From Candidatus Rokuibacteriota bacterium (lineage in GTDB: Bacteria > Methylomirabilota > Methylomirabilia > Rokubacteriales > CSP1-6), in the NCBI GenBank assembly GCA_003220225.1, contig QHRU01000035.1, positions 1 to 64,000 on the forward strand: 64,000 nt of DNA, read 5' to 3'. Position 1 is the first letter of the stretch. The number at the start of each line of letters is the position of its first letter. Shown one piece after another: positions 32,213 through 63,100 of the stretch. Under the pieces are notes generated by a model that was not told the origin of the DNA, ran no database searches, and saw only the letters and a program-made list of their open reading frames with translations. The position numbers and the translations under genes were made by a program.

Positions 32213-32389
32213 CTACGTCTTCGGCTTGCTGCCGAGGTGGCGGAAGAGGAAGTCCTCGTCCGCGGGCGAGAGGTCGAAGCGACGTGACGCCTCGTCCACC
32301 AGCTTCACCCGGTCGGCCTTCGGGTTGTCGTGCAGCTGGTCGTCGATCCACTGGATGGCCTGTTTGATCGGCGCCTCGCCCACGCTCAT
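32213..32389 (-). CDS. small acidic helical protein of unknown function
   Basis: A 58-residue ORF (MSVGEAPIKQAIQWIDDQLH...), preceded by AGGAGA, that ends FLFRHLGSKPKT. It is mostly helical and charged, with no Cys and no membrane segment. It follows the selenoprotein gene by 10 bases and is probably co-transcribed with it. I do not recognise the family. Confidence 0.6.
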   Translation of the reverse strand: MSVGEAPIKQAIQWIDDQLHDNPKADRVKLVDEASRRFDLSPADEDFLFRHLGSKPKT

Positions 32390-32399
32390 GGGACGTCTC

Positions 32400-32699
32400 C
32401 TATGATTTCTGCTCGCGTTCGAACGTGGTCTTCCACTCCTTGTTCTTGTCCTCGATGTCGGGGATGTACTTGATGGTGGACCAGGCGGCGCGCGCGCGCC
32501 CGCGCATCGCGTACATCAGGGTCTCGCTGATCTCGTCCTCGGTGGCGCCGGCTTGCTTCGCAGCCGCGAAGCGTCCGGGCACTCAGGAGGTGCAGCCGGC
32601 GGCGGCCATCGCGGCCAGCGCCACCAGCTGCATCGTCTTCGGATCCAGCGCGCCTTCGCGGTAGTAGAGCCCGGCGAACTCCTTCATTTCCTTGGCCAT
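32400..32699 (-). CDS. AhpD/carboxymuconolactone decarboxylase-family selenoprotein (CxxU)
   Basis: The ATG (complement of 32697-32699) after AGGAGG opens MAKEMKEFAGLYYREGALDP. The frame meets an in-frame TGA at 32583-32585 exactly at the second position of the family redox motif: G-C36-T-S-U39. Translation after it continues the family pattern (RFAAAKQAGATEDEISETLM) to a TAG at 32400, giving 99 residues. A 7-bp hairpin, GCTTCGC-GGCT-GCGAAGC, begins 10 nt after the TGA and has G at the start of its loop, as bacterial SECIS elements do. I read it as selenocysteine, not a pseudogene. The likely role is peroxide or thiol redox chemistry. Confidence 0.82.
32555..32572 (-). promoter_or_regulatory. 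SECIS-like hairpin of the CMD selenoprotein
   Basis: On the minus strand GCTTCGC pairs perfectly with GCGAAGC around a GGCT loop, starting 10 nt 3' of the UGA codon. Position and loop G match the minimal bacterial SECIS. Confidence 0.7.
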
Positions 32700-32728
32700 C
32701 GGGGACCTCCTGTGCGTGAGGTGCCGCC

Positions 32729-32849: not shown

Positions 32850-34367
32850 GTGCAGATCCCGCTCGACCGCGACAAGCCGGTGCCGCTGGCGCGACAGATC
32901 CAGGCCCACCTGGAACGGCTGATCACCGCGCGCCTGCTCGCGCCGGGCGTGAAGCTTCCGGCGACGCGCGAGCTGGCGCAGTCGCTCGGCGTGAACCGCG
33001 CGACGGTGGCCCTCGCGTATGAAGAGCTCGTCGCCGCGGGCTGGGCGCGCGCCCACGTCGGGCAGGGGACCTTCGTGGCGGGGCCGCCAGCCGGCGCGGC
33101 CGCGCCGGCGGCGCCACCGGCGGCTCGGCCCCTGAACTGGTCGGCGCTGCTGTCGCGGAGCGCGCGCATCGTGGAGAGCGATGGCGAGCGCGCCCGTGCC
33201 GCCGCTCCGGGCGCCGTCCGCGACGGCGTGATCTCGTTCGCGGGTGGCATGCCGGACAGCGGGCTCTTTCCGACCGACGCCTTCCGCCGCGCCCTCAACG
33301 AAGTCGTGCGCGAGGAGGGCGAGTCGCTGCTCCAGTACTACCCGGTCGGCGGCTATCCACCGCTGCGGCGGTATCTCGCCACCTACCTGCTGCGGTTCGG
33401 GCTCGAGGCGCGCGCCGAGGACATCTTGATCGTCAACGGCTCGCAGCAGGGCTTCGACCTCATCGCGCGCACGCTGCTGGATCCCGGCGACGCGGTCGCC
33501 ATCGAGCAGCCGACGTACCCGCGCGCCATGCAGGTGTTCCGCTCCTTCGGCGCCTCGCTGCTGGCGGTGGACCGGGACGCCGCCGGTCCGCGCGTCGACG
33601 CGTTCGAGCGGCTGCTCGAACGGCAGGTGCCGAAGTTCTTCTACTGCCAGCCCTGCGCGCACAATCCGACGGGGCTCACGATCCGCCGCGACGTCGCGGC
33701 GGGGCTGCTGGCGGCGGCGGCGCGACACCAGGTGCCGGTCGTCGAGGACGGCTTCGACGGCAGTCTCTACTATGGCGCGCGGCCGCCGGCGCCGCTGAAG
33801 GCCCTCGACCGCGACGGCGTGGTGGTCTACATCGGGACGTTCTCGAAGGTGCTGTTCCCCGGGCTGCGCCTCGGCTGGCTCGTGGCGCCGCCGCCGCTGG
33901 CCGAGCGCCTCCGCGCCGCCAAGCAGCTCGCGGACCTGCACACGAGCGCGCTCATCCAGGCGGCGGTCCACCGCTTCTGCGAGCGACGGCTGCTCGATCG
34001 CCACGTGGCCCGCATCGCCGCCGAGTATCGCCGGCGTCGCGACACGCTCGTGGCCGCGCTCAAGCGGCGAATGCCCGAGGACGTCACGTGGACCGAGCCC
34101 GAGGGCGGCTTCTCGCTGCTGGTGACGCTGCCGGCCGGGCTCGACGCGGGTGCGCTGCTGCCGCGGGCGCTCGAGCGCGGCGTGGCCTACACTCCGGGCG
34201 CGGCGTTCTGGGTGGACGACAGCGGCGAGCGGACGCTGCGGCTGTCGTTCTCGTCCGTGCCGGGCGGCAAGATCGACGAGGGCGTGCGGCGGCTCGGCGA
34301 GGTGGTGCGCGCGGCACGACGGCGTCCCGCGCATCCGGTCGAGCGCGTGGCCGCGCCAACGGTGTAA
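32850..34367 (+). CDS. pdxR: MocR/GntR-type PLP-dependent regulator, PdxR-like
   Basis: A 505-residue fusion. Residues about 5-75 are a GntR winged helix ([40 protein letters not shown]). Residues about 125-500 form a class I aminotransferase fold with the PLP site ([17 protein letters not shown]; Lys in FSK) and [10 protein letters not shown]. MocR regulators sense pyridoxal phosphate. With pdxS and pdxT immediately downstream, this one is best called PdxR, activator of vitamin B6 synthesis. It starts at a GTG with AAGGAGG. It is divergent from the selenoprotein gene. Confidence 0.88.
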
Positions 34368-60112: not shown

Positions 60113-63100
60113 ATGAGCCTTTCACGTCGTGACTTCCTGAAGTACGGGGGAGCGACCGCCACGGCAGGCGCGCTCGGCGCGGGCGTCGACATGCTGCCCG
60201 TCGAAGCCGCGGCGGTCTCGCTCAAGATCAAGGAAGCGAAGGCGTTCGCCGGCGTCTGCCCGTATTGCGCGGTGGGCTGCGGGCAGCTCATCTACACCAG
60301 GGACAACAAGATCATCGACATCGAAGGGAACCCGGACACCCCGCACACGCTGGGCCGGCTCTGCCCTAAAGGTGCTGCCACCATCCAGCTGTCGAACAAC
60401 CCGCTGCGGCCGACCAAGGCGCTCTACCGCGCGCCCGGCTCCGACAAGTGGGAAGAGAAGCCGATCGCCTGGATGTACGACCAGATCGCCAAGCGCTACT
60501 ACGACGCCCGCGAGAAGTACTTCATCACGAAGGAAAAGGACAAGGACGGCCACGACGTCACGGTGAACCGGCTCGAGGCGATCGCCTCGCTCGGGTCGGC
60601 GTGCATCGACAACGAGGAATGCTACCTCCTGTCGAAGCTGAACCGGACCTTCGGCATCGTCTACCACGAGCACCAGGCCAGGGTCTGACACAGCGCCACG
60701 GTCCCAGCTTTGGGGACCACGTTCGGTCGCGGGGCGATGACGACCAACCTGATCGACCTCCAGCACTCGGATGTGATCATGGCGACGTCGAACATGGCCG
60801 AGAACCACCCCGTCGGCTTCCAGTGGGTGATGAAGGCCAAGGAGCGCGGGGCCAAGCTCATCCACGTGGACCCGCGCTACACGCGCACCAGCGCGGCGGC
60901 GGACATCCACGTGCCGCTGCGGTCGGGGACGAACATCGCGTTCTTCGGCGGCCTGATGAGCTACGCGATCCAGAAGAACCTCTACTTCAAGGACTACGTC
61001 GTTCACTACACGAACGCCTCGTTCCTGCTCGATCCGGCGTTCAAGACGCCCACCGATCTCAACGGCCTGTTCACGGGCTTCGACGGAACCAAGAAGTCGT
61101 ACGATCGGGCGTCCTGGAAGTATCAGCTCGACGGCGAGGGCAACCCCAAGCGTGACCTCTCGCTGAAGGACCCGCAGACCGTCTTCCAGCACCTCAAGCG
61201 GCACTACAGCCGCTACACGCCGGAGATGGTCGAGAAAGTCTGCGGCATCCCGAAGGCGAAATTCGAGGAGGTCGCCAAGCTCTACTGCGGCACGTCGGGG
61301 CCCGACAAGACGGGCACCATCACGTACGCCCTGAACCTCACGCAGCACACCAACGGCGTGGAGAACATCCGCTCGCTGTGCATGCTCCAGCTCCTGCTCG
61401 GCAACATCGGGCGGCCGGGCGGCGGCGTCACCGCGCTGCGCGGCCACGCCAACGTGCAGGGGGCGACGGACCTCGAGCTGCTCTACCACGAGCTGCCCGG
61501 GTACCTCGCCATGCCGTTGCGTGACGCGCATCCCGACCTCAAGACGTATCTCGAGAAGGAGACGCCCAAGGGCGGGTTCTGGACGAACAAGCCGAAGTTC
61601 ATGGTCAGCCTGCTCAAGGCGTTCTACGACGACGCTGCGACGAAGGACAACGAGTTCGGCTACCAGTGGATCCCGAAGCGCGCGTCCGCCGACGCCTATA
61701 GCCACCAGCACATGTTCGTGGACATGTACAACGGCATCATCAAGGGCTTCCTCGCCGACGGCCAGAACCCGGCGGTGGGCGGCCCCAACGCCAAGCTCGC
61801 GCGGGCGGCCATGCAGCGGCTCGACTGGCTGGTGGTCGTCGACATCTTCCTGACGGAGACCGCGGAGGTCTGGAAGGAGCCCGGCAAGGATCCGAAGGAG
61901 GTCAAGACCGAGGTGTTCTTCATTCCCGCGGCGCCGGCCGCGGAGAAGGACGGCAGCCTCACCAACACCATGCGGCTGATCCAGTGGCACGAGAAGGCGG
62001 TGGATCCGCCGGGCGACGTGCAGACCGACGCGCAGTTCATCTGCACGCTGGCCCACCGACTCCAGAAGATGTACGCGAGCAGCAAGAAGGAGCGGGACAA
62101 GGGATTTCGGGCCGCGAACTTCACCTACGGCGCGAAGCCCGACCATCCCGAGATGGTCGAGGTCCTGAAGGAGGTCAACGGCGTCGCGACCGAGGACATC
62201 ACCGACAAGGAAGGCAAGGTCCTCTACAAGAAGGGCCAGCCGATCGCCTCATTCGCGCAGCTCACGGACGACGGCAAGACGACGTCCGGTTGCTGGATCT
62301 ATACGGGCGTCACCGTGGAGAGCCCGGACGGCAAGCTCATCAACAAGGCGGCCTCGCGCAAGCCGGCCGACGGCACCGACTACCTGGCACACGGCTGGGG
62401 TTTCTCGTGGCCGGCGAACCGCCGCATCCTCTACAACCGCGCCTCCGCCGATCTCCACGGCAAGCCGTGGAGCGAGAAGAAGAAGCTGATCTGGTGGGAT
62501 CCGGCCGCCCCGGGGGCGAAGCCGGAGGACAAGCCGGGCAAATGGGTCGGGCTCGACGTTCCCGATTTCAACGCCTTCCTGGCGCCCGACGCGAAGAACG
62601 GCGACAAGCCGTTCATCATGCGCGCCGACCTCGTGGGTGGGTTCTTCGGGCCGCTCAACGACGGGCCGTTCCCCGAGCACTACGAGCCGATCGAGTCACC
62701 GACGAAGAATCTGTTGTCGAGGCAGCAGAACAACCCGGTCGCGAAGATCTGGAAGGTGCCTGACCAGAAGAACGAGCTGGCACCGGTCGGCTCGAAGGAC
62801 TACCCGTACGTCATCACGACGTATCGCCTGACGGAGCACCATCTGTCCGGCGTCATGTCCCGCTACCTGCCGATGCTGGCCGAGCTGCACCACTCGCACT
62901 TCGCCGAGATCAGCCACGAGCTGGCCAAGGAGCTCCGGATCGAGAACGGCGAGAAAATCACGGTGCTGAGCCCGCGCGGCAAGGTCCACGTGACCGCGAT
63001 GGTCACGAACCGCATCAAGCCGTTCATCATCGACGGCAAGACCGTGCACCAGATCGGCGTCCCCTGGCACTGGGGCTGGAAGGGCGTCGATCAGCTGCCG

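Follow-up and report, generated by a model that had tools for sequence, protein, structure and literature searches.

An AhpD-like selenoprotein gene from Rokubacteria and its apparently selenocysteine-only subfamily

The 64,000-nucleotide stretch of DNA analysed here (the window) carries on its minus strand a gene of the AhpD/CMD family whose codon 39, an in-frame UGA, is read as selenocysteine (Sec) with a probability that we put at roughly 95% from comparative sequence data. An initial annotation had proposed such a gene, and its coordinates proved right, as did its description of a strong ribosome binding site ahead of the true start (Table 1). Translated with TGA as Sec, the gene gives 99 residues (MAKEMKEFAGLYYREGALDPKTMQLVALAAMAAAGCTSUVPGRFAAAKQAGATEDEISETLMYAMRGRARAAWSTIKYIPDIEDKNKEWKTTFEREQKS), with G-C-T-S-U-V around the TGA. 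A promoter scan gave no consensus match for the minus strand; a TATAAT just upstream was spotted by eye. The window belongs to contig 108 of a 97% complete draft genome of 6.03 Mb, and in a scan of named genomes its nearest relatives are Candidatus Rokuibacteriota/Methylomirabilota MAGs. The host is a soil/groundwater bacterium.

Table 1. Coordinates of the selenoprotein gene, its signals, its neighbours and its paralogues; positions are those of the window unless contigs are given.
Feature	Position	Strand	Remarks
AhpD/CMD-family selenoprotein gene	32403..32699	-	99 codons, ATG at 32699; translation with TGA as U, Pfam CMD match, phylum-wide conservation
Stop codon TAG	32402-32400	-	read from sequence
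In-frame TGA, codon 39 (Sec39)	32583..32585	-	second redox residue of C36-T-S-U39; counterpart of AhpD Cys133
Shine-Dalgarno AGGAGG	32706..32711	-	6 nt before ATG; read from sequence
Putative SECIS hairpin GCUUCGC-GGCU-GCGAAGC	32555..32572	-	7-bp stem, GGCU loop; fold and synonymous freeze in stem codons
58-codon gene downstream	32213..32389	-	starts 10 nt after the selenoprotein gene's stop; no Cys
Divergent pdxR (MocR-type regulator of pyridoxal-phosphate synthesis)	32850..34367	+	NCBIfam NF052282, 339.3 bits (cut-off 320)
Eight further Sec-CMD paralogues	contigs C97, C51, C128, C1, C28, C96, C162, C57 (G000)		loci L012, L013, L016, L019, L020, L021, L022, L024

Membership of the CMD superfamily is borne out by the Pfam model PF02627 (55.1 bits, cut-off 23), and the AhpD core model TIGR00778 is also passed (30.4 bits, cut-off 27.8). 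The protein nevertheless fails to reach the cut-off of any NCBIfam selenoprotein family. Specifically, the best-scoring of these, the GSU3128 family (NF041047), gives 50.9 bits where 110 are required, and NF041537 (arsenite methyltransferase/AhpD selenoprotein, a family fused to a methyltransferase) reaches 48.4 bits against 510, through its AhpD part only, so that the protein is a member of neither. GSU3128 proteins, distant AhpD homologues, are likewise small, single-domain, AhpD-like and of the CxxU type. An AlphaFold model (pLDDT 93.8) has as its best Foldseek match in the PDB the CMD protein RclX (7y4r), at a TM-score of about 0.6 and with no match reaching an E-value of 0.001. RclX is the best match among solved structures in both structure and sequence: it shares the CMD fold and has its CxxC at the same place, but it is a Cys form and retains a His at position +4 from the second Cys. 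In Mycobacterium tuberculosis AhpD and Pseudomonas aeruginosa PA0269 the CxxC sits in a two-helix hairpin, and the CxxU occupies the same place. The best explanation of these data is a single-domain, mostly helical AhpD-like thiol/selenol oxidoreductase, whose physiological role, judged from its family, is probably the handling of peroxides or disulfides.

The neighbouring genes suggest another function, namely that the protein is a regulatory CMD tied to pdxR-pdxST or to the 58-residue protein and not primarily a peroxide or disulfide oxidoreductase. pdxR is followed by pdxS and pdxT, whose products both exceed their family cut-offs, and pyridoxal phosphate is the cofactor of SelA. Within the window's family most members retain the divergent pdxR, and in many the 58-residue gene lies close behind the selenoprotein gene. 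The latter encodes a protein with three predicted helices and no family match in Pfam or NCBIfam, and is found in 62 of 94 genomes (about two thirds of the phylum's), in nearly all of them as a single copy. The tight pairing of this gene with the selenoprotein gene, to which the initial annotation drew attention, holds in part: the two adjoin in many genomes of the window's family, but elsewhere other genes intervene (an ABC transporter, L115, in one resolved case), and 17 genomes of the same family have a single-copy 58-residue gene with no selenoprotein gene of the subfamily detected. An obligate pair was therefore rejected. Against a regulatory function, moreover, distant members keep the selenoprotein gene but not its neighbourhood, with no divergent pdxR in those examined, and the conserved C-x-x-U points to redox chemistry. 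We consider this alternative unlikely; the neighbours give a hint of shared regulation and do not decide the function.

The oxidoreductase reading presupposes that the UGA is decoded as Sec, and the machinery that the initial annotation expected in the host is complete, including selB and selC, whose absence would have counted against the assignment. The genes selA (584.8 bits), selB (372 bits) and selC (69.7 bits; a tRNA-Sec with anticodon UCA) are clustered on contig C5, and selD (335.3 bits; L042, C159:12780-13730) is itself a selenoprotein gene with an in-frame TGA and the active site SCAGU. At a single locus, a frame that stays open through a TGA would look identical if the codon now stood for Trp, Gly or some other amino acid. 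However, all four Sec genes and a tRNA-Sec(UCA) are present, TGA still terminates genes in the phylum (several orthologues of the selenoprotein gene stop at TGA), nine CMD paralogues have their TGA where the redox Cys would be, and a SECIS follows the TGA studied here, so that reassignment retains only a very small probability. The window also holds, at 60686 on the plus strand, an fdhA-type gene for a formate dehydrogenase alpha subunit, with an in-frame TGA (ARVUHSATV) and a SECIS-like hairpin with a 7-nt loop 17 nt downstream of it.

Orthologues were searched for in 95 genomes of the phylum and are present in dozens of them. All 46 extracted copies that span the Sec codon have TGA there, with the frame intact on both sides at identities down to about 60%, the hairpin sequence kept, and the protein flanks of the TGA near-invariant (GCTSU/VPGRFAAAKQAGAT), which agrees with the initial annotation that the family pattern continues past the TGA. 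The copies that do not span the codon are two contig-end fragments (L098, L099) and one locus (L094/L138, contig C205 of G007); the latter appears to be a degraded or misassembled copy, conserved after Arg43 and unrelated before it. The retention of TGA, frame and hairpin in 46 copies is far beyond chance and, as comparative evidence, argues for recoding. That the TGA is instead a real stop, a disabling mutation or a sequencing error, with the downstream part a remnant or a separate small gene, would fit standard ORF calling, which returns just a 60-residue downstream fragment with a GTG start, but is extremely improbable, because neither errors nor decay would give the same TGA in independent assemblies with near-invariant protein on both sides and a frozen SECIS.

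Outside the phylum, all three subfamily members that we found (in Nitrospinota, Olavius Delta 1 symbiont and Tectomicrobia MAGs) have the TGA and the same stem, their phylum labels resting on MAG binning and thus possibly being wrong. Neither the phylum copies nor the named genomes scanned contained a Cys member of the subfamily. Such a member would have shown in the scan of named genomes, because neither of the two peptide patterns used there covers the Sec position, and the subfamily thus appears to be Sec-only.

The 7-bp hairpin with its GGCU loop was found where the initial annotation had placed it, starting exactly 10 nt past the UGA, with the loop 17 nt after it. The 42 nt after the UGA fold at −21.2 kcal/mol (z = −2.02), and since 8 of 200 shuffled sequences fold equally well, folding by itself exceeds chance only moderately. 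Formal covariation is uninformative because the stem does not vary: the upper stem is invariant among orthologues, and the score obtained is matched or exceeded in 41 of 500 shuffles. The constraint is seen in the codons. In 34 of 34 close orthologues the residues R-F-A-A-A-K past the UGA are encoded by CGC TTC GCG GCY GCG AAG, with synonymous change nowhere except at the fourth loop base, which takes all four letters across the wider orthologue set. Codons +4 to +9, which form the stem, are the most constrained of 83 six-codon windows, with 10 non-major codons observed where other columns of the same genes predict 53.8, counts that come from related orthologues and are not a probability; all 10 vary at one wobble base, loop position 4. 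The published rule for bacterial SECIS elements asks for a loop of 3–9 nt, a G in the first two loop positions, a distance of 16–37 nt from the UGA and an MFE below −7.5 (PMC13188914). Applying bSECIS limits of a 4–16 bp stem, a 3–9 nt loop and an MFE of at most −7.5, we find that the hairpin qualifies, with 7 bp, a 4-nt loop, and the distance and folding energy given above. Because the RNA is constrained and the published rule is satisfied, a SECIS is the natural reading, and the frozen codons together with the universal TGA constitute strong comparative evidence for a SECIS and for selenocysteine. An Rfam scan of the whole window gave no match.

Aligned with AhpD, Sec39 takes the place of the catalytic Cys133, and Cys36 that of Cys130. 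The proton relay of AhpD consists of Glu118, Cys130, His132 (or Tyr), Cys133 and His137 (PMC3141380). The equivalents in the selenoprotein, a single short domain unlike AhpD, are Gln24, Cys36, Ser38, Sec39 and Arg43, so that it falls outside AhpD proper; among 21 aligned subfamily members Arg43 is invariant and Gln24 nearly so. Because Glu118 and His137 are replaced by Gln24 and Arg43, the subfamily probably does not use AhpD's proton relay, and AhpD-type peroxidase chemistry is therefore not to be assumed. On our reading, SelB with Sec-tRNA decodes UGA39 with the aid of the hairpin just downstream. Recoding, SECIS, family, motif and conservation are borne out by the sequences, and reaction, electron donor and physiological role are inferred. 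In the catalytic scheme that we propose from the family, the Sec39 selenolate, which would already be ionised at neutral pH and could be stabilised by Arg43, would attack a peroxide or disulfide; Cys36 would then resolve Sec39 into a selenenylsulfide, which a dithiol (thioredoxin and a lipoyl protein are candidates) would re-reduce. We regard this cycle of selenolate attack, selenenylsulfide formation and dithiol reduction as reasonably likely.

The missing relay His invites a more general rule, by which the presence of Sec would free CMD proteins to drop this residue. Within the phylum the His is kept in 8 of 8 CxxC proteins and in 10 of 40 Sec proteins (Fisher p = 0.0013 on 50%-identity clusters). 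However, a control outside the phylum contradicts it: two of the His-less Sec subfamilies have Cys homologues there that are likewise without the His, with Asn in L341 and L342 and Arg in L347. We therefore do not claim the rule, because the loss tracks the subfamily and not Sec. Plasmid-borne Cys relatives of the subfamily (L350–L352, L354) carry Gln as the first relay residue and retain the His; among the sequences compared, the change from His to Arg was seen only in the Sec subfamily. A precedent for neighbouring catalytic residues that differ between Sec and Cys forms is mammalian MsrB1 (Sec) versus MsrB2/B3 (Cys) (PMC1311585), although MsrB is unrelated to the present protein in fold and reaction.

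CxxU has been a listed motif of AhpD-like and CMD-like selenoproteins since 2005 (PMC1088965, PMC2398784, PMC13188914). The suggestion in the initial annotation that Sec in the CxxU and not the UxxC position is odd was thus dropped: it is the usual arrangement in this group. The CMD-like and AhpD-like selenoproteins (PF02627, COG2128) known from the Sargasso Sea and GOS surveys share the CMD fold, the CxxU and a SECIS right after the UGA, but those families have many Cys homologues (299 Sec versus 902 Cys, and 70 versus 207, in the GOS data; PMC1088965, PMC2398784), whereas the present subfamily yielded no Cys member. PMC13188914 cites a recent report of 63 predicted selenoprotein genes in one Methylomirabilota MAG; none of the papers searched deals with selenoproteins in Rokubacteria. 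That the gene is a new member of the known AhpD/CMD selenoprotein group is well supported, and it probably represents a new subfamily. What seems to be new is a subfamily outside all NCBIfam selenoprotein cut-offs, apparently Sec-only and lacking the Glu and His of the AhpD relay, which adds an uncatalogued group to the prokaryotic selenoproteome. With no known Cys form and no Cys-activating relay, it is a clear-cut natural example in which to study what the use of selenium allows. Because ordinary gene callers cut such genes, antioxidant-type proteins are probably missing from the annotations of these genomes.

The genome contains 19 CMD-family matches, nine of which have exactly one in-frame TGA, in every case at the second redox residue (eight CxxU, one NxxU). 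The remaining 10 all lack a CxxC, and searching again with the AhpD-core model added no such copy, so Sec is present in every redox-type CMD detected in this genome; with the draft 97% complete, a CxxC copy could be missing from the set. CxxC copies do exist elsewhere in the phylum, in other genera. It is possible, though we hold it tentatively, that these observations describe a Sec-obligate AhpD-like subfamily of Methylomirabilota/Rokubacteria and a few other phyla, made selenium-dependent by the exchange of the Glu/His relay for Gln/Arg, in a genome where all redox-type CMD proteins detected (nine of nine) use Sec. The paralogues on C162 and C128 resemble the 'YciW-related (seleno)protein' family NF053654, at scores below its cut-off. 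The NxxU paralogue (L020, on C28) belongs with L313, L315, L321 and L324 to a conserved small CMD subfamily with N-T-H-U, which would need another partner for the selenenic acid because the resolving Cys is replaced by Asn. Sec without the first Cys is also seen in two CMD proteins, L331 and L336, with A-x-Y-U and S-x-Y-U.
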